Shown: positions 5,194-14,750 of the stretch, piece after piece
Position numbering within the stretch: position 1 is the stretch's first letter
Layout: each line of letters begins with the position of its first letter
Assembly: GCF_001624705.1 (NCBI RefSeq)
Contig: NZ_JSEO01000015.1
Coordinates: 62,001 to 126,000, forward strand
Source: Marinomonas sp. SBI8L
Lineage (GTDB): Bacteria > Pseudomonadota > Gammaproteobacteria > Pseudomonadales > Marinomonadaceae
Direction: 5' to 3'
Length of the DNA stretch: 64,000 nucleotides
Position numbers and translations under genes: made by a program
The notes under the pieces: model-generated
What the model was told of the DNA's origin: nothing
Database searches by the model: none
Seen by the model: only the letters and a program-made list of their open reading frames with translations

Positions 5194-6246
5194 CTACTTC
5201 AACCTAACATGCAGCAAGATCCCTTTATGGTCTGTTACCGCAACAGCGCCATTACTCACTATATTACTTAGTTGATGATCCGTGCGCCCTTCATAGGTTG
5301 CATCGTCGTCGTCACTGTCTGAGCCATCGTCTCCATCATCATTTACGCCGTGGTAAACAAACTGATTGGTATACTCTATCCAAGGGAGGTGAACGGTATT
5401 TTCATTATATAAAGCAATGTCGTAGAACTTCTCTCCTGTAGAGTTAGTTCCGTGGAGGTTACCGAATGAGTGTTTTAAAGTTGAATCAGTTACGACTTTT
5501 GTCGCCAGTTTATAGCTATTACCACCAGAACTCATGGCATTCAAAATATTTACCACGGTAGAAATGCCGCTTTGATTCGTATCGCCCATGATGATATCGG
5601 GTATTTTTTTAATTAAGCTAGAAGCGTTAATTTTGTCTTTTAAACTGGTGAAAAAGCTCTGCATACCTGTGCTTGAAGAAGCATGGCTATTTGGCACATG
5701 TAAAAAGACGATCAATAAGTTGTTTTTGATGAATGCAACAAAGCCGGTGTCACTTAGAAAGTGTGTATTCAAGCTTAAGTTGGTATCTATAAAAGGTGTG
5801 AACAAGCTGAAATTCTGACAATGTTTCTTTGCAGAAGCCACTCTGACGCTTTTCCCTAGATCCCTAAAGGTACTGATATCATCCGAAGTAATCTGAGCGT
5901 TTAACTCCCCGACACAAGTAATATCTACATGCTGTTTAATACTTCGGCGCATTTGCCTTTGACCATTCAGGATCAAACGCCTTATGTATCGCCTTCTAAG
6001 CATTCTGTCCTTATCCCTGTTTACTAGTGGCTTATACTCTCTCACTTTAACGTCTAGCTTAACCCTTTTTTTAGCAATGGTTTTAGACGCTCTGAGCAGC
6101 TTTTCACGAAACCTAACAGTACCGCTACTCACAGCGCGCTTAGCCGTGGTACGGGTATGCATACATTCTTTCCAAGAATACGAACTTGTCGGGTCAGAGC
6201 TATTTGTTTCTATGGATTGATAATAGATGCTAGTACTCGTAGTCAT
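5194..6246 (-). CDS. DNase I-like (endonuclease/exonuclease/phosphatase fold) protein
   Basis: A 350-residue protein with a good ribosome binding site (AAGGA, 5 bases before the ATG). The C-terminal two thirds carries the EEP-fold signature in order: HVPNSH (183-188), MGDTN (220-224, the GDxN motif), YDIALY with Asp276, and VTDH (337-340). These are the usual metal- and phosphate-binding residues of DNase I-like enzymes. Residues 58-110 are very basic, suggesting nucleic-acid contact. Residues 303-315 are an acidic Asp-rich insertion. The first 58 codons and upstream region are duplicated at 6991-7294. DNA, RNA and phospholipid substrates are all possible. No signal peptide is seen. Confidence 0.65.
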   Translation of the reverse strand: MTTSTSIYYQSIETNSSDPTSSYSWKECMHTRTTAKRAVSSGTVRFREKLLRASKTIAKKRVKLDVKVREYKPLVNRDKDRMLRRRYIRRLILNGQRQMRRSIKQHVDITCVGELNAQITSDDISTFRDLGKSVRVASAKKHCQNFSLFTPFIDTNLSLNTHFLSDTGFVAFIKNNLLIVFLHVPNSHASSSTGMQSFFTSLKDKINASSLIKKIPDIIMGDTNQSGISTVVNILNAMSSGGNSYKLATKVVTDSTLKHSFGNLHGTNSTGEKFYDIALYNENTVHLPWIEYTNQFVYHGVNDDGDDGSDSDDDDATYEGRTDHQLSNIVSNGAVAVTDHKGILLHVRLK

Positions 6247-6376
6247 AAAAATCCTTGTAAACGCTACCTATATCTGAATTTAGGTACAGAAAAGTTGAAA
6301 TGAGATTCAGTTAAAAAATCATATATTAAATAGCAAGAGATACAAAGCAGATTTATGGGTGAGGGTTTGGTGTTAG
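6072..6376. repeat. ~305-bp direct repeat, copy 1
   Basis: Covers the first ~58 codons of the DNase I-like gene and about 130 bases upstream. It matches 6991-7294 at a constant offset of 919 through the coding part, with only a few substitutions and one single-base gap. Confidence 0.9.
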
Positions 6377-6928: not shown

Positions 6929-7165
6929 CTAGAAAATTAATGCGAATATTTGAAATAGATTAAAAATTGGCATGCCTGTCCATGCAAATATAGCAATGGT
7001 TTTAGACGCTCTGAGCAGCTTTTCACGAAACCTAACAGTACCGCTACTCACAGCGCGCTTAGCCGTGGTACGGGTATGCATACATTCTTTCCAAGAATAC
7101 GAGCTTGTCGGGTCAGAGCTATTTGTTTCTATGGATTGATAATAGATGCTAGTACTCGTAATCAT
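6929..7165 (-). pseudogene. truncated duplicate of the DNase I-like gene 5' end
   Basis: The ATG at 7165, its ribosome binding site and about 58 codons are nearly identical to the start of the intact nuclease gene. The match breaks off right after the residues KTIA, and the frame runs on through 20 unrelated codons to a stop at 6929. It lacks every catalytic motif. It may still be expressed as a 78-residue peptide because the promoter region was copied too. It looks like the remnant of a cassette exchange or tandem duplication. Confidence 0.8.
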
Positions 7166-7294
7166 AAAAATCCTTGTAAAGGCTACCAATATCTGAATTT
7201 AGGAACAGAAAAGTTGAAATGAGATTCAGTTAAAAATCATATATTAAATAGAAAGAGATACAAAGCAGATTTGTGGGTGAGGATTGGGTTTTAG
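6991..7294. repeat. ~304-bp direct repeat, copy 2
   Basis: Second copy of 6072-6376. The left boundary is sharp at the base after codon 58. The right boundary falls about 130 bases upstream of the start codon, so the unit is promoter plus N-terminal region. Confidence 0.9.
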
Positions 7295-7369: not shown

Positions 7370-8122
7370 TTATGTAAAGTCTGAGAACTGCTGTTTTTTT
7401 ATAAGATCAATTAAACCAAATTCAGAAAGGTTATTGTTTTTATATTCTAATAAAGCCATTTCTTTATCTCCAGTTTTCAAAGCCCTTATAAAATTTTTAA
7501 ACTTTTGATAATGTGAAGATAAAATTTCAAGCCTAAGTAATTTAGCATTATTGTTTGAATGAAGAAATTCATCATAATGACCAATCCCGAACATTTTAAT
7601 TGTTTTCAAAGCTTTCTCATATTCATAGCCATTATTGTTTCTAGGAGTCAGCTCTAATAAGTTACGCCCTGTTTGTGACATAACGAATCGGACATTAAAT
7701 AATTCACTAAGGTTGTCTGTTAATGGATTAACTATTAATGGTTGTTCTTTCTCGATAGATTCTGAACATGTGCCTCGAATAGCAGGAGAAAAAAGGGGAA
7801 ATTCACATCCTTTATATAAGTTATTGCAATCAGAACACATCACAATATAGTTTTTATCCTCATATTTAAGGAATGGATACAAGCCATTTTTTTTCGGTCT
7901 ATAATGATCAATTGTAGCCTCAATAGAAATACTTTGACTATTATTACTTGGTCGAGTTAATGAACCATCTAAACGACATTCGCATATAGGGCACTTATTC
8001 TTAGTAACCTTTAAATGAACAGGTTTAAAAATTGACCACCGTTTCGCATTATTCGAAGCGAGAAATTCTTTCTTGGTATTTTCGTAGTCACTATGTTCAT
8101 AAAGATCCTTCATACTAATCAT
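7370..8122 (-). CDS. HNH nuclease, PtuB-like, second gene of a Septu-like operon
   Basis: A 250-residue protein. The start at 8122 overlaps the ATPase stop by 8 bases and has GGAGAG 7 bases upstream, so the two genes are translationally coupled; a longer frame to 8197 would run inside the ATPase gene. Residues 44-47 (CPIC), the central IDHYRPK (71-77) and CSDCN (96-100) form a Cys-type HNH finger as in PtuB of Septu and the Ec78 retron effector. His73 is the expected catalytic base. The C-terminal 140 residues are helical and charged. It is probably the DNA- or RNA-cutting effector kept in check by the ATPase. The operon ends in a clear terminator. Confidence 0.8.
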   Translation of the reverse strand: MISMKDLYEHSDYENTKKEFLASNNAKRWSIFKPVHLKVTKNKCPICECRLDGSLTRPSNNSQSISIEATIDHYRPKKNGLYPFLKYEDKNYIVMCSDCNNLYKGCEFPLFSPAIRGTCSESIEKEQPLIVNPLTDNLSELFNVRFVMSQTGRNLLELTPRNNNGYEYEKALKTIKMFGIGHYDEFLHSNNNAKLLRLEILSSHYQKFKNFIRALKTGDKEMALLEYKNNNLSEFGLIDLIKKQQFSDFT

Positions 8123-11042
8123 TGAAAAACTCTCCAAACTCTTCAAGAAATTCTTCCATATCTTCAGGTTCAATAGATTCAAATCTATTAAAATCAATTT
8201 CTTTATTATCTCTTAAAAACTTTAAAAACTTATAATAATTTCTATTATAAAGAATTTCACTAGAGAAGCTATTATCAAGTTCTAACTTTATCTTTTCAAT
8301 TCGTTCTACTTCTTCATCATTAGGCGAATTTATTATTTGCAACGATGAGTACTCTTTTATTTTATCTCTCATATCTTTTCCAATTAGAGACGATAAATTA
8401 AAGTGTTCAAGAAGAACTGACGAAATATCTAGGTATTTCGTCCCTATTTTACTAGTATCAATGCAAGTACTTTTATAATCTATAATTCCAATCTCATTTT
8501 GATTACGATTTAATAGAATCAGTGGATTATGTGTAGTTGATACAATTTGCATTTTTGGATTTAACTCTTTTACATTGTCAATAAAAGAAGACTGCCACTC
8601 AACATGTAGAGATGTTTCTGGCTCATCCATGATTAAAATAGATGATTTTCCAGAGTTTAAAATCACATTTAGAAATATAATCAGTAATTGTTTTTCACCT
8701 GAAGAGAGTTGATTTAATCTTATTCTCTTCTTTTCCGGTGATGACAATTCAATTACTAGCGCATCATTATCGTCATCTATTATTATGGTTTTCTCAGTAT
8801 CTAAGAAATATTTATCCATTACTTTTTTAAATTTAAGTAAAACTTTTGATTCATTATCTATAATACTATTAATTTCAACAGAAAGTTTCTTAAATTCTAA
8901 CAAAGATTCAGGAGTACTGTCGGTAATATTTTCAAGTATTTTATTTCTTTTACTTTCTAACTCCTCTGATCTATTACTTATAATCTGCTTAACATTTCGT
9001 TGATACTTACTAAATTTATTTGTCAAATTCTCAATTACTAAATCCAAAGTTAAACTTTCATTTTTATTAGAAAACCGACTTAAATCATTAAGTGAAGGAA
9101 TAATTATTGGGTTTAAGTTTAAAGAAGGTGTATTTGCTTTTAATACTTGTTCTGAATTTTGACCATTTTCAAATTCTTTTTTTATTGTTAATTCAACATA
9201 TGGGTAGTTATAATAGTCAAGTATTTCTTTATTATTAGATATACATGCACTAAGCAAATTTAATACAGTACTTTTTCCTGATCCATTTTTACCAACCAGA
9301 AGATTAATATCGTCCTGTAAATTCCACTCTATATCACGATTACCAAATATATTTGTTATTTTAATTTTACATATTGTTGTTCGTATTGGTTCTTTCATTT
9401 CCAAAGCACCTGAATTTATCAATAATTTTTTAAGTTTTTCTCTAAAATTCAGAAAGTTTTTTGAACTTTCTTTAGGCAAAAAATTTGTTATAATATTATC
9501 GAAAATGAAATTTTTTCTATTTTGATGAGAACCTCTTCCTCTCATCTCATAGGCTTGTTTCCATAAGTGAGATTTCTCTATAATCAGTTCTTTGAAAATA
9601 AAATCTCTCAAGTTTTTAGAGAAAGTTCTTTTGATTTTATTTTGTGAGTCACATATTTCTGAAACCAAATTATTTTTGGTCAAAAATAAATTTATATCTC
9701 TCATGATAAAAGTTAGAACCCAGCTTAAAGGTTTTAGATGGCGATATTCAAAATCCTTCCAACTTAGCCTTTTACTGAAAGCTTTTAACACTGCCCAGTG
9801 TTCATTATCGAGCCGATTTATAAACTCTTCATGAAATTCATTATTATTAATAGTTGAATAAAAAACTGAATAATCATACTCTAAATCAATAATATTTCTT
9901 TCAATTTTACTATTTATTACTTTTAGTAATTTTATTATCTGCCCTGAAGTATGGTGACTGAGTTCTTTTTTATTTAACTCTCCAAATTTAAAGGTGTCTT
10001 TATTTTCTACACTAAACTCTATACTTTGCTTACTAAGCGCTGATGATAAATTATGTAAATTCCTTCTTATATAACCGTTTACATCAGTATTATCCAATTT
10101 ATCTGTTTTAGAAAACACTAGTTGAAATTTATCTTGATAGCCATTTAAGCATATACTTTCAATTACACCTTGCCCACCTGTTGCAAAAGCTTCCTCTGCA
10201 TCACCAATAAGAATAATATGATTACAAAAATCAAAATAGTCATAGTGCCTTGTGGACAGCGTATCACGTTTCTCACTGTAAGAATGGCCAATGCCTTCTC
10301 CATCAATTAAAACAAAATTTGAACTGTTATGAAATTTTGAAGATAACAAGTCACCTTCAATTCTAACATATTCAACTAATGCAGATATGGAGCCAAATTC
10401 ATTTTTGAGTAAATCTTTATTTTTAATAATAAATTTATCTTTATCATTTATCCCTATTATTTCTATTGTTTCTTGTTCGAAAAGATTTCCCGAATCAGGA
10501 CATGTTTTTGAAAAATTAAATTCAATTTCACCAATAAGATTATTTTTTATATCATCAACAATATTGTTAACTTTTAAGTTATCAAAAAAACCATCATCAT
10601 TTACATCTAAATTTAAAGGCCTTAGCTTATTTATTAATGTTTCAGCTTGTTTCTCTATAATTGAATCTGAAACTATATGTTTTAATTTAAACCTTTCATC
10701 AGGTGACTGCTCAAATTCATAAATAACATCACTTAAATTAGAGTTTTTATCCAAGGTTTTTTTTATTGCTTCAAAAATCAAATCTTCAATTGCAAAAACA
10801 AGGTCTTCTTTTTTCTTTAATAAAATAGTACTTTTAAAAGGTAATAAACTGTTAATTACATATTCAGTTGGTGCAACAGTCGTTCTGCGTTGAGTTGTAG
10901 TTGGAAAGTTAACTTCCGTTGTTCCAAGTATTTGCTGAACTAATGAGCTTTTACCTGCCCCTGTGCTACCAATCAAGTAAGCTTTTGTGACTTCCTCTGG
11001 TAGATCACCCATTAAATTTTGTATTGTTTTAAAATCGCGCAT
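8115..11042 (-). CDS. fused GTPase-like / ABC (SMC-type) ATPase, Septu-like defence protein
   Basis: A 975-residue two-headed P-loop protein. The N-terminal half has Walker A GSTGAGKSS (25-33), a Thr-rich switch I-like stretch (48-55), a DGEG switch II (247-250) and SKTD (311-314) in the G4 position, which together suggest a dynamin- or septin-like GTPase. Residues 380-550 are helical. The C-terminal half has a second Walker A GKNGSGKST (584-592), a coiled helical insert (665-745), the ABC signature LSSGEKQ (779-785), Walker B IMDEPETSLH (804-813) and a THN switch (837-839), as in PtuA/OLD-type ATPases. No nuclease motif is seen, so cutting falls to the HNH partner. PtuA is normally much shorter and lacks the GTPase half. 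Codon use is very AT-rich, indicating transfer. Confidence 0.8.
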   Translation of the reverse strand: MRDFKTIQNLMGDLPEEVTKAYLIGSTGAGKSSLVQQILGTTEVNFPTTTQRRTTVAPTEYVINSLLPFKSTILLKKKEDLVFAIEDLIFEAIKKTLDKNSNLSDVIYEFEQSPDERFKLKHIVSDSIIEKQAETLINKLRPLNLDVNDDGFFDNLKVNNIVDDIKNNLIGEIEFNFSKTCPDSGNLFEQETIEIIGINDKDKFIIKNKDLLKNEFGSISALVEYVRIEGDLLSSKFHNSSNFVLIDGEGIGHSYSEKRDTLSTRHYDYFDFCNHIILIGDAEEAFATGGQGVIESICLNGYQDKFQLVFSKTDKLDNTDVNGYIRRNLHNLSSALSKQSIEFSVENKDTFKFGELNKKELSHHTSGQIIKLLKVINSKIERNIIDLEYDYSVFYSTINNNEFHEEFINRLDNEHWAVLKAFSKRLSWKDFEYRHLKPLSWVLTFIMRDINLFLTKNNLVSEICDSQNKIKRTFSKNLRDFIFKELIIEKSHLWKQAYEMRGRGSHQNRKNFIFDNIITNFLPKESSKNFLNFREKLKKLLINSGALEMKEPIRTTICKIKITNIFGNRDIEWNLQDDINLLVGKNGSGKSTVLNLLSACISNNKEILDYYNYPYVELTIKKEFENGQNSEQVLKANTPSLNLNPIIIPSLNDLSRFSNKNESLTLDLVIENLTNKFSKYQRNVKQIISNRSEELESKRNKILENITDSTPESLLEFKKLSVEINSIIDNESKVLLKFKKVMDKYFLDTEKTIIIDDDNDALVIELSSPEKKRIRLNQLSSGEKQLLIIFLNVILNSGKSSILIMDEPETSLHVEWQSSFIDNVKELNPKMQIVSTTHNPLILLNRNQNEIGIIDYKSTCIDTSKIGTKYLDISSVLLEHFNLSSLIGKDMRDKIKEYSSLQIINSPNDEEVERIEKIKLELDNSFSSEILYNRNYYKFLKFLRDNKEIDFNRFESIEPEDMEEFLEEFGEFFND

Positions 11043-11529
11043 ATTATTCTCTAGAGCTAAAATATATGTTTTTTATATAATACATCATGCCTAAGCTTAG
11101 TATCCCTGTTAACTAATATTTTTATATATTCACTTAAAACAATCCTCATATCTTAATTTTTTTAATATAAAATATTTTAAGGAAACAAACTTAAGTTTGA
11201 TTTTTATACTAAAAAATGACTAGTTTCTTACATTTTAAGATTTAGCTTTTCTATCTAGTCATTTTACAATAAAAAGGTATGAAAAGATCATTAAAACCAA
11301 AAGATAAGCAGTTTGAAAAGCCGTCCTTAGCCCTACAAGCTGAAATTTAAAATCTCATTTATTGATAAATGGTCAAAAACCACTAACAGTCTATCTCATA
11401 TATAAATTACTAGAATCCTACTCATTTCCCTTCACATTTCAATTTATTTCGCTATGATCAAGCAAAAAACATACAATTTATAACATTATCGCTAATCTTT
11501 CATTGCAAATATGTCATAGCCCAGAACGG
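11043..11529. other. 487-bp AT-rich spacer
   Basis: No gene is recognised. It holds the promoter side of the ATPase-HNH operon and a perfect 11-bp inverted repeat at 11213-11265. GC rises again to the right of about 11500, marking the right edge of the island. No integrase, tRNA or obvious attachment repeat is present. Confidence 0.5.
11213..11265. repeat. 11-bp inverted repeat, 31-base loop
   Basis: AAAATGACTAG (11213-11223) is the exact reverse complement of CTAGTCATTTT (11255-11265). It lies about 170 bases upstream of the ATPase start and could be an operator or a weak terminator; neither can be shown. Confidence 0.5.
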
Positions 11530-12231
11530 CTAAACTCTGCTTTCTTTTAGACTGCTAGCGGGTTCAATACGTATCAAAGCCTGCAACAAGAATCCAATCA
11601 TTAGGCCATTCAATAAATGCCAGAGAAAGTGACTACCTAAAGCAAATCTGGAGCACAAAGCGAGGTCATAGGTTCTTGCGACAAGGGATAAGCTAAAGAC
11701 AGCTGCAGCACTCATTACCCAAGGCCATACAGGACGCTTTTTTATTAAGCTGATTAGGGCAAAAACCCAAAGTCCTATAAGAGCAGGCGTATACTGGCCC
11801 GATCCATTTAAGGCATCTGTTGAGGCGCTCACTTGAGTAGCACTGCCTGAGATAAAGATCCAACCTAGGCTGATGAAGAGAAGTGGTAAAAACATTAACA
11901 AACGAGTGGCAGTTAAGCCTTGGCGGCCCGTAAGTTTCAAAAACACCACCAGTATATAAAGAGCGACAAAGCTCCAAATAGGGATAACATCCGCAAAGGA
12001 TGACCAAAGATTAGCTGTGGTATGAAATAGGAAAGAGCCTAAACCAATACAAGCTCCGAGTAGACATAATACCTTTGTGCTGATATCAAACGGCCCTCTT
12101 TTTCGAGCACTTGATGCAGCCCAAAGTGCAGCAATCACAAAACTTAGGTTAGATATTGCATTGATTGGTTCGGCCCAAAATGCCGTTCCGACTCGTTCGC
12201 AGTATAGATCTATCTCGGTAAACCATTCCAT
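11530..12231 (-). CDS. ceramidase-like integral membrane hydrolase (CREST superfamily)
   Basis: A 233-residue protein with about seven membrane helices. The pattern EPINAISNLSFV (21-32), GSFLFHTTAN (65-74) with His70, ADVIPI with Asp81, and a C-terminal GSHFLWHLLNG match the alkaline ceramidase / PHB-aPHC family. There the Asp and three His (two in the last motif) with a Ser bind zinc and cleave amide-linked lipids. Bacterial members mostly have unknown substrates, and ceramide is not a common lipid in gammaproteobacteria. It is monocistronic, separated from the upstream cytochrome gene by a strong hairpin. Confidence 0.75.
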   Translation of the reverse strand: MEWFTEIDLYCERVGTAFWAEPINAISNLSFVIAALWAASSARKRGPFDISTKVLCLLGACIGLGSFLFHTTANLWSSFADVIPIWSFVALYILVVFLKLTGRQGLTATRLLMFLPLLFISLGWIFISGSATQVSASTDALNGSGQYTPALIGLWVFALISLIKKRPVWPWVMSAAAVFSLSLVARTYDLALCSRFALGSHFLWHLLNGLMIGFLLQALIRIEPASSLKESRV

Positions 12232-12356
12232 TTACTCACTTCCTTGTAATTGGGTTCGGGTTGATATGCTTATTGATCATAATGAGTATGATCTGCAAGA
12301 GCAGGCATTTTAGAGCAAGAATGGGAGCTAGATAAAGCTAAAAGTTTACTGATTTA

Positions 12357-12398
12357 GCAGGTATTAAAACGCTTAGTAATTAGCGTTTTAATACCTGC
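12357..12398. terminator. 16-bp perfect hairpin, probable terminator
   Basis: GCAGGTATTAAAACGC (12357-12372) pairs with GCGTTTTAATACCTGC (12383-12398) around 10 bases. It lies 51 bases after the cytochrome c stop codon on the minus strand. There is no clear T-run, so a role as transcript 3' end protector or repeat is possible. Confidence 0.55.
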
Positions 12399-12449
12399 AG
12401 TTGAGGCTAGATGATTAAGCCAATGACGTGTCGATTACTTTTCTGCTGT

Positions 12450-13277
12450 TTAGAGCTTGTTCGTATTCTTGTGTTCCTTCATATACACAAGGTAATCAAT
12501 AGCGTTGTCTATATCCTCATCGGATAAATCAGGCAGCCCTGTCATTCTGCTTCTGGCTCTAAAGCTATCTGGGTTACGGATAAACTGCTTCATATACTCT
12601 TTCGTGCGATATTCGGTAATATTTTGCGGAATGTTCAACTCTGGTCCAATCACGCCACCCACTAAATTGACTGAGTGACAGGCCAAACAAGCGCCTTTAA
12701 ACAACTTGTAACCTTCGTGAACAGAAGCGGATGCAGATTGCTCTGGCTTAATCACCTGATAACTATCTTTGGCAGATATTTCTAAAGCAACCACTTGATG
12801 AGGCCAAGGGAAAATGCCGAATGTTTCTTTTTGAGGCCACACCATATAAAAAGGCGAAGGATCAGCAATTTTCTTGCCCTCTCGCATTGGCTCAAAATCA
12901 CCGGCAATGCCTTTACCGTTTTGATCCAACTGACGATAGCTGATCAGGGCATCTGGGTATTTACGCAGAATGTCGCCATCCAGTACCGCCTTGTATCCAT
13001 CGGCACAAACAACGGTAATTTCTGCTATGTCGTCTAATGAATAGTTATTATGTTCTAGCATGGCTTTTAGTGAAATGCCTTCATATGTTTTATCTTCATG
13101 ATAAGACACATCGTAGACGGTAAAGGATTGCACTTTGAATATGTCCATCATGTCAGACAGGGTCATCACTGACTCGTATTGCTCAGATTGAATTCTGAAC
13201 TCCTGAGACTCGTCATAGGCCATTGCCGATATAGAAACACCCGCCGTTAGTAGGCAACTCAACAAAATCCGTTTCAT
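12450..13277 (-). CDS. periplasmic cytochrome c with N-terminal molybdopterin-oxidoreductase-like domain
   Basis: A 275-residue exported protein. A Sec signal peptide (about 1-20, ending AMA) is followed by a domain (about 25-175) that resembles the sulfite-oxidase-type molybdopterin-binding fold: ISLKAMLEHNNY, VVCADGYKAVL and the WPQK...WPHQVVALEI stretch. No cofactor-ligating cysteine is evident there, since its only Cys lies in VVCADGY. The C-terminus is a class I cytochrome c: heme site CLACH near 196-200, and an axial Met probably in SRMTGLPDLSDEDI. It should carry electrons in the periplasm. The donor or acceptor is unknown and no oxidase genes adjoin. Confidence 0.75.
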   Translation of the reverse strand: MKRILLSCLLTAGVSISAMAYDESQEFRIQSEQYESVMTLSDMMDIFKVQSFTVYDVSYHEDKTYEGISLKAMLEHNNYSLDDIAEITVVCADGYKAVLDGDILRKYPDALISYRQLDQNGKGIAGDFEPMREGKKIADPSPFYMVWPQKETFGIFPWPHQVVALEISAKDSYQVIKPEQSASASVHEGYKLFKGACLACHSVNLVGGVIGPELNIPQNITEYRTKEYMKQFIRNPDSFRARSRMTGLPDLSDEDIDNAIDYLVYMKEHKNTNKL

Positions 13278-13460
13278 GAATAATCATCCTTATATTCAAG
13301 TTCCATAAAATCGTACGGGATACTGCATGAAACGGGGAGAGAGATCAAAAGGTTTGTCTCAATTTTTGAGAAGTCTAACAAATGAGTGATTTAGGACTAA
13401 ATTAGTACAATTAAAACAATAAGATAATAGTGAAATTAATTAACACTCTTAAGTAAAAAA

Positions 13461-14750
13461 CTAGACTAAATAGCGATTAAAACGCTTTCTAAGGAGCGCA
13501 TTAATATGTTCTGTTGGAGCAGCATTGATTGCTTTTTGCATTTCAAGGTTTGCAACTTGAGACTTCCCGATCTGAAAAAGTAAATCCGCTTTGACTGCAT
13601 ACCAGTGGTAAGAGCATGCAAGCCAATTGGGTGGTGTGAGGCTAGCTAAAAAAGTGAGAGCCGCTTCTGGGCCATCTAGATGAGATACTACTATGGCACG
13701 GTTTAAACCTAATAATGCCGAAGGGCTAATCTGTTGTAGTTTATCGTATGCCGATAAGATGCTTTGCCAATTGGTCTGTTCAAAGCTAGGGGCTAAACAA
13801 TGCTCTGCGGCAATACTGGCCTCTAGATGATATCGAGATAAATGCTCACCTTTTGCTGAGTCAAGAAGGTAGCTCATGCCGATTTTAATGTATTTATCAT
13901 GCCAGAGTGATCTGTCTTGATCCGAGAACAATATCAGTTCACCACTGCCCTCTTGGCGGCTATTCATTCTTGCGAGGTGAAAGAACATTAAGGCCAATAA
14001 GGCAAAGGTTTCGGGTTTATTACCACTAGGATGTTCCGACAAAACACTGGCAAGATGAATCGCCTCTTGGCACAGATCTAGCCGAATGGCCTTATCTGGA
14101 TGAGATGATAAATACCCTTCGGTAAAAATAAGATAAATAACATTCAGTACATTTGAAAAGCGAGTATTAAGCTCACCTAAACTGAAATTAGCAATATCTA
14201 ACTCACTCGTTTGTAGAGACGACTTAGCTCGATTAAAGCGTTTATAAACATTGGCTTCTGAGATGAAAAGGCGTTTAGCTATCTCGTTAGTACTAAAGCC
14301 GCACACGCTTTAAAGGGTAAAAACTAACTGTGATTGCGCTGGTAAGGAGGAATCACAACAGATAAACAAAAGGGACAGCATATCGTCACTCATCTCTTTA
14401 GATAAGGGAATTTGCAAGCCCATTTCTTGTTTACTTTCTTGTTCATCCGCTTGAATTAACGCCTGCTGAATGAGCAAGGTTTGTTTGCGTTTATCAGTGC
14501 GAAACTCAGACATCAGCGTGCGATAAGCTACTTGGTAAAGCCATGCACTTGGCTGCTTTGGTTTGCCACTCACAGGCCAAGCATCTAAGGCAGTCAGCAT
14601 GGCTTCTTGCACAGCATCTTCCACTAGGCTGAGATGCTCTATGCCTACCCGCTTACTTAAGCTTGCGACAAGTTGACCATAATGATGTCGAAAAAGATGA
14701 TCAACTTGGTGCTGCTTCTCTTGTTGATAGTTAGTACCATTTGAATTCAT
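13461..14750 (-). pseudogene. ECF42-type sigma factor interrupted by one in-frame stop
   Basis: From the ATG at 14750 the frame encodes the sigma-2 region (DHLFRHHYGQLVASLSKR, EDAVQEAMLTALDAWP) and reaches a TAA at 14310-14312. The same frame continues without a break (Ser, Val, then CGFSTNEIAKRLFISEANV, the sigma-4 helix-turn-helix) and on through the long TPR-like C-terminal domain to 13461. Intact relatives read continuously through this point. The two halves give 146 and about 281 residues. The 3' part shows no further damage, so the stop is recent, suppressed, or the halves are made separately (a GTG at 14306 could start the second). It follows the DGPF gene by 4 bases, as in ECF42 loci. 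Confidence 0.8.

Follow-up and report, generated by a model that had tools for sequence, protein, structure and literature searches.

A Predicted Dynamin-Like GTPase Fused to an AriA-Like ATPase and Paired With a PtuB-Like HNH Nuclease in Marinomonas sp. SBI8L

A Two-Gene Operon in Marinomonas sp. SBI8L

We analyzed a stretch of 64,000 nucleotides from the genome of Marinomonas sp. SBI8L (contig NZ_JSEO01000015.1, positions 62,001 to 126,000; hereafter the window) that carries two overlapping genes on its minus strand. The first encodes a single protein in which a predicted dynamin-like GTPase half is followed by an ABC-type ATPase core resembling AriA of the PARIS system and by a C-terminal tail, whereas the second encodes an HNH nuclease resembling PtuB of the Septu system (Table 1). 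Through ATPase-plus-nuclease pairs bacteria shut themselves down upon virus infection, and dynamin-like GTPases elsewhere remodel membranes. In all likelihood, the gene pair represents a type of anti-virus system that has not been described before.

The initial annotation of this locus had proposed a Septu-like operon that couples a PtuB-like HNH nuclease with an ATPase bearing two P-loop domains. Both frames were confirmed, all six of the motifs that it had named lie at the exact residues claimed, and the fusion gene recurs with an overlapping HNH gene, in the same domain order, in three other genomes (loci L010, L011, and L041). Chance or a frame artifact was considered and rejected because four genomes carry open frames of the same layout.

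When called from the longest possible start, the HNH frame spans 7370–8197 on the minus strand, with a TTG start codon at 8197. We consider ATG 8122, which yields a protein of 250 amino acids, to be the likely start because all four fusion loci have the sequence M-I-[SD]-M in common where the ATPase frame stops; longer starts are possible in each of them. The HNH frame overlaps the ATPase stop in all four loci, and this overlap suggests that the ATPase and the nuclease are translationally coupled.

Table 1. Features of the gene pair in window coordinates; aa, amino acids.
Feature	Position	Strand	Basis
Fusion gene	8115..11042	minus	One open frame, 975 aa; domains by Pfam/PADLOC and predicted fold; conserved in L010, L011, L041
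Dynamin-like GTPase half (predicted), aa 1–551	9390..11042	minus	AlphaFold2 model, Foldseek/VIA matches, standalone homologs
G1/Walker A of GTPase half, GSTGAGKSS, aa 25–33	10944..10970	minus	G25 and T27–K31 invariant in 10/10 aligned family members
G3-like motif, DGEG, aa 247–250	10293..10304	minus	DG[EQ]G in family
G4-like motif, SKTD, aa 311–314	10101..10112	minus	SKxD in fusions, THFD in aligned standalone members
AriA-like ABC-type ATPase core, about aa 552–845	8508..9389	minus	PADLOC AriA, trees
ATPase Walker A, GKNGSGKST, aa 584–592	9267..9293	minus	
ABC signature, LSSGEKQ, aa 779–785	8688..8708	minus	
Walker B/D-loop, MDEPETSLH, aa 805–813	8604..8630	minus	
C-terminal tail, aa 846–975	8118..8507	minus	Weak match to PADLOC PtuA model PDLC00293
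PtuB-like HNH nuclease, 250 aa from ATG 8122	7370..8122	minus	PADLOC PtuB; HNH/zinc residues kept in 4/4 loci
HNH/zinc core: CxxC 44–47, DH 72–73, N91, CxxCN 96–100	7820..7993	minus	
ATPase stop/nuclease start overlap, ATGATTAG	8115..8122	minus	

The N-Terminal Half Is Dynamin-Like in Predicted Fold

The AlphaFold2 model of residues 1–551 is confident (pLDDT 82.1, pTM 0.84), and the solved structures nearest to it in Foldseek/VIA searches are dynamin-superfamily proteins. G-domain motifs G1 to G4 were found together with a predicted dynamin-like fold that includes a helical stalk; the helical C-terminal part comprises residues 391–543, and a helical insertion (about residues 78–212) lies ahead of the G3 strand. 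In an alignment of 10 members of the family to which this half belongs, G1, two threonines at the place of G2, G3, and D314 are conserved throughout, G4 reads SKxD or THFD as opposed to [NT]KxD, and no G5 motif was identified. The half is accordingly dynamin-like in its predicted fold. The extra N-terminal GTPase-type half of the initial annotation is thus borne out. Of its label "dynamin/septin-type," the dynamin part agrees with the predicted fold, while septins were not among the structure matches listed, which does not exclude them.

Similarity at the level of sequence is faint. Pfam Dynamin_N matches 8 of the 10 family members weakly (best E 0.0015), the top matches of the family profile in a PDB sequence search were all short and confined to the P-loop (best E 0.0057), and an NCBIfam scan of the family yielded nothing convincing. 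The GTPase half alone matched no PADLOC family at E 0.01. Weak dynamin-like proteins were recovered from BFVD by structure search, the best named rows being from giant viruses. No transmembrane-type stretch is present in residues 1–551, where the most hydrophobic 19-residue segment averages 1.07 on the Kyte-Doolittle scale, and no membrane paddle was identified, amphipathic paddles not having been assessed. As a separate observation, the PADLOC model mad8 (MADS) weakly matches 6 of the 10 members (alignment A3; best E 4.9e-4), the window member not being among them.

That classical PtuA lacks such a half, as had also been claimed, agrees with the PADLOC models: among the 25 of 82 matches listed, every best stretch lies at residue 468 or later. 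The possibility that the GTPase half is a standard part of PtuA can therefore be dismissed for these models.

The ATPase Core Is Closer to AriA Than to PtuA

The best PADLOC match of the ATPase is AriA (143 bits, E 2.8e-42, over residues 555–846), with PtuA at 84.9 bits, and its best PDB sequence matches are AriA entries 8ux9 and 8v45 (about 50 bits), with PtuA at 32 bits at most. Phylogenetic reconstruction of 16 ATPases separated four fusions and five AriA rows from seven PtuA rows by a branch with 100/100 support. The branch between the AriA side and PtuA was again supported at 100/100 in a 19-row tree (including three fusions, eight PtuA, and three other rows), where long-branch warnings were raised among the PtuA and other rows. 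The fusions formed a clade at 93/95 in the 19-row tree; in the 16-row tree they were not a single clade (grouped together in 17% of bootstrap trees). Tree rows were chosen by the analyst, and the trees are biased because the AriA rows were picked as matches to the ATPase of the fusion; the PADLOC and PDB scores are free of this bias. Together, these sequence comparisons indicate that the core is closer to AriA than to PtuA. The term "Septu-like" in the initial annotation accordingly holds for the HNH nuclease and weakly for the C-terminal tail, but not for the ATPase core.

The tail, which comprises the last 130 residues, is absent from two aligned AriA rows. It matches the PADLOC PtuA model PDLC00293 near the C-terminus of the latter in all four fusions, weakly (E 5.4e-4 to 4.7e-5); for the L041 tail, JetA3 is a slightly better match (2.1e-4). 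The tail is a candidate docking site for the HNH protein. How the parts meet is not readable from the full-length model of the fusion, which is poor (pLDDT 64.6, pTM 0.42).

A tblastn search with the fusion matched 54 plasmid records, and the ATPase neighborhood was examined in six. Three of these (L052, L053, and L054) hold pairs of an ATPase with a DUF4435 protein, one (L051) has an unnamed partner, one record (L050) is unannotated, and the last (L055) encodes an HNH-partnered retron protein. Single-chain HNH-PtuA proteins were seen at L060 (1819–3897, 692 amino acids, by PADLOC) and L055 (1037–3151, 704 amino acids, by eye). A second HNH-type gene follows in both, and the L055 gene adjoins a retron reverse transcriptase.

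The Partner Is a PtuB-Like HNH Nuclease

PADLOC assigned the HNH protein of the window (E 6.4e-14) and that of L011 (E 7.9e-18) to PtuB. The HNH and ATPase genes overlap in four of four loci, and the claimed coupling of a PtuB-like nuclease to a two-P-loop ATPase is supported. Relatives of the HNH protein were found in 10 plasmid records, and all six that were examined adjoin an AAA ATPase. Related AAA ATPases are reported to occur with Toprim, HNH, and HEPN nucleases (PMC10440598).

Conservation of the Fusion and Its Nuclease

The same fusion is found next to an HNH gene at the three further loci. L010 and L011 come from metagenome-assembled genomes of Methylococcaceae (methanotrophs) and are near-copies of each other, the operon of L011 lying at 10001–13745, whereas L041 belongs to genome G409, of the same phylum as the window, and encodes a fusion of 987 amino acids. 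Best-segment identity to the window fusion is 40% for L010 and L011 and 48% for L041. Across the four fusions, the six motifs vary only at residues 26, 32, and 810 and at position 3 of SKTD. Identities of the window proteins to L010, L011, and L041, respectively, are 44, 44, and 51% for the GTPase half, 37, 37, and 44% for the ATPase, and 41, 43, and 45% for the HNH protein; between L010 and L011 they are 91, 97, and 88% for the same parts. The GTPase half was the best conserved part in five of the six pairwise comparisons.

Ratios of nonsynonymous to synonymous substitution rates, which come from the single pair L010/L011 and from small counts, were 0.28 for the GTPase half, 0.14 for the ATPase, and 0.36 for the HNH gene; within the GTPase half they were 0.18 for the G-domain core and 0.47 for the helical insertion. 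It could be that the faster-changing insertion is a recognition surface, which we offer only as a suggestion.

In L010, a frame for an mREase_IV-like helicase and an 807-amino-acid protein precede the fusion gene in a tight row, while AbiLi lies about 5 kb downstream in L011. Because the upstream genes differ between these two loci, the fusion and HNH genes are the constant unit. A search of 369 genomes of the class (E 1e-12) revealed no additional full-length relative, and one of 78 genomes of the order of G409 revealed none besides that of G409 itself. A census of 398 genomes of the phylum with the PtuA model PDLC00293 at E 1e-20, a weak screen that missed the window's own fusion at this threshold, returned nine places in eight genomes, where the open frames measure 178–638 amino acids with the exception of the G409 fusion. 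Viral contigs scanned with P0001, the HNH alignment, and the fusion alignment yielded no relative; a scan with the ATPase alignment yielded seven loci, with no such fused frame among the matches listed.

The GTPase Half Belongs to a Family With Standalone Members

The GTPase half belongs to an unnamed family that is also found standalone, without ATPase or nuclease, both on plasmids (in some cases beside defense genes) and as single genes among phage structural genes on viral contigs. The family is represented by 16 viral-contig loci, of which 13 (all except L028, L029, and L033) had their neighbor frames clustered; in 8 of the 13, a member of a shared neighbor family, c2, is encoded close to the dynamin-like gene and on the other strand. 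There are fewer independent phages than loci because several of these loci carry near-identical copies. At L026, L027, L032, and L034–L038, the standalone gene is the single opposite-strand gene among phage structural genes.

Ten proteins from five viral-contig loci were compared with PHROGs. The five neighbors at L035 comprise a tail tape measure protein, a minor tail protein, a tail terminator, the c2 protein, which belongs to a PHROG family of unknown function, and a fifth protein of unknown function with a weak match to head closure; the dynamin-like protein itself had no PHROG match. The single neighbors tested at L032, L037, and L039 are head proteins, and that at L030 is an integrase. 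Such a place within blocks of phage structural genes is typical of accessory genes, and the standalone genes are candidate phage-borne accessory or defense genes. The GTPase half had no match in 50,697 phage records, and the dynamin-like protein of the Bradyrhizobium plasmid L009 matched no PADLOC family at E 0.001.

Ten hand-picked, and hence non-random, neighbors of plasmid, genome, and viral-contig copies were screened with PADLOC; six belong to known defense families (a CBASS phospholipase, a CBASS cyclase, AbiD, two type I restriction enzymes, and DrmD) and four to none. In alignments, the C-terminus of the standalone proteins meets the first residues of AriA-like proteins, so that the fusion is joined end to end. 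Most standalone members (L009, L014–L016, and most of L025–L040) have about 100 extra N-terminal residues (VTFRHP...GLGT), which are absent from Rhodococcus members and from the aligned fusions; this stretch is weakly like DUF6538 in 1 of 10 members scanned (E 0.046).

Comparison With Known Systems and a Proposed Mechanism

PARIS, the system to which the ATPase core points, pairs AriA with AriB, a Toprim/DUF4435 protein. In contrast, the partner of the fusion is an HNH protein in four of four loci, and the fusion adds a dynamin-like half and a C-terminal tail. The AriA hexamer is reported to sequester AriB until a phage protein triggers its release, whereupon AriB cleaves tRNA-Lys (PMC11455837). 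Septu and the effectors of retron Ec78/Eco7 share with the operon a PtuB-like HNH nuclease overlapping an ATPase gene. The tail weakly resembles the C-terminus of the PtuA model PDLC00293, the ATPase core does not fall on the PtuA side of the trees, and none of eight PtuA rows (380–704 amino acids) has a dynamin-like half, two having an HNH part in front instead. It is reported that Septu EcB88 requires both Walker and HNH residues and cleaves tRNA-Tyr, that PtuAB of retron-Eco7 depletes tRNA-Tyr, and that another Septu cuts DNA (PMC13096335, PMC11555353).

Bacterial dynamin-like proteins (SynDLP, BDLP, IniA, the 5oxf pair, and DynA of Bacillus subtilis) share the predicted G-domain fold and helical C-terminal part, but the half described here is separate from them by sequence, is fused to an ATPase, and has a large helical insertion and no identified membrane paddle. 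DynA reportedly restricts the spread of phages by supporting membrane integrity, an effect that depends on its GTPase (PMC8844932). Weak PADLOC matches to LeoA of Eleos occur in 3 of 10 family members (best E 0.0019), but not in the window member at E 0.01. In ptuXYZ, a PtuA-like ATPase is likewise recombined with other modules, but its partners are DUF262 and a BECR-fold toxin, and no dynamin-like domain is described in the available excerpt (PMC11980606). Searches of open PMC papers, which largely do not extend to subscription papers and preprints, turned up no fusion of a dynamin-like domain with PtuA or AriA, and in the one open paper that names both dynamin and Septu the two are unrelated entries.

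Judged by its sequences, the operon looks like a hybrid of PARIS and Septu with a dynamin-like module, since AriA-like scores point to a PARIS-type core, the PtuB-like HNH protein to a Septu-type nuclease, and the PtuA-like tail perhaps to a Septu-type docking site. We propose, with moderate confidence, that it is a two-gene anti-phage operon, probably of the abortive-infection kind, in which the dynamin-like module would be the sensor or assembly switch that licenses the HNH nuclease. From the reports on PARIS, Septu/retrons, and DynA we infer that this half may act as the switch of an AriA-like scaffold controlling the nuclease. If it resembles AriA and PtuA in this respect, the ATPase would assemble into a ring or scaffold to which the nuclease is bound and by which it is held in check. 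Upon infection, the dynamin-like module would bind GTP, its G domains would pair, and GTP would presumably be hydrolyzed; a phage product or a disturbed membrane may provide a further cue on contact. This switch would rearrange the scaffold and license the nuclease, which may cleave host RNA (e.g., tRNA) or nucleic acid generally, such that phage production stops and protection would result. Somewhat more tentatively, we suggest that the sensor or switch arose from a free-standing protein linked end to end to a PARIS-type ATPase, which in turn had taken a Septu-type HNH nuclease, and that the free-standing family is an unrecognized one-gene phage defense.

That plasmids and viral contigs carry family members with neither an ATPase nor a nuclease, and that the join is end to end, would also be expected if two defenses simply shared one chain, with the dynamin-like module an independent effector fused to a complete AriA/PtuB-type pair only because the two travel together, and neither gating the other. 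Against this reading, which we regard as unlikely, three diverged lineages have retained the join, each along with the HNH gene, and the defense role of the standalone members is putative. Alternatively, the module may be a tether or scaffold that places the ATPase and nuclease at membranes or in polymers while the ATPase senses the trigger, as AriA itself does in PARIS (PMC11455837). The nearest folds are membrane-acting dynamins, which fits such a role, but the low hydrophobicity of residues 1–551 and the lack of an identified paddle speak against it, and we regard it as rather improbable. Least probable is a function outside of phage defense, in which the HNH protein would be the toxin of a stress response or of a module for toxin-antitoxin action or element maintenance: AAA ATPase-nuclease pairs do occur in toxin-antitoxin networks (PMC10440598) and the window neighbors are not recognized defense genes, but the closest characterized relatives of the ATPase and nuclease are anti-phage and known defense genes are among the neighbors of the relatives.

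If the dynamin-like module is indeed a switch of the nuclease, its presence on the chain of an abortive-infection ATPase would tie assembly driven by GTP directly to the control of the nuclease. Such a link would be a bacterial parallel to the immune GTPases of animals. What bacterial dynamin-like proteins sense would become testable through a simple genetic read-out, namely HNH-induced growth arrest. A new set of candidate one-gene phage-borne defenses would come from the standalone family.

Genomic Setting of the Operon

Ten neighboring frames in the window were scanned; three matched no family and seven matched ordinary ones (short-chain dehydrogenase, patatin, PqiA, ceramidase, cytochrome c, DUF6596, and LysR). 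The promoter count was in line with that of shuffled sequence (30 vs. 26.2, standard deviation 5.1). The guanine-plus-cytosine content of the operon is 27.9%, vs. 39.6% for the window, and is 26–29% between 8 and 11 kb. Next to the operon, the ceramidase-like gene (11530–12231) was found in its own genome only, 1 of 40 genomes of the genus (E 1e-20), and its absence from the other 39 searched is the reason that the whole stretch may be accessory. The patatin flank has matches in 24 of the 40 genomes, among them three besides the own genome at 51–70% identity, and neither flank gave a usable site for an empty-site comparison in the genus.

A direct repeat of about 305 bp occupies window positions 6072–6376 and 6991–7294 (246 nucleotides at 98% identity, then 63 at 92%). 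It duplicates the start of a 350-amino-acid frame (5194–6246) and leaves a truncated frame (6929–7189) just downstream of the HNH gene.

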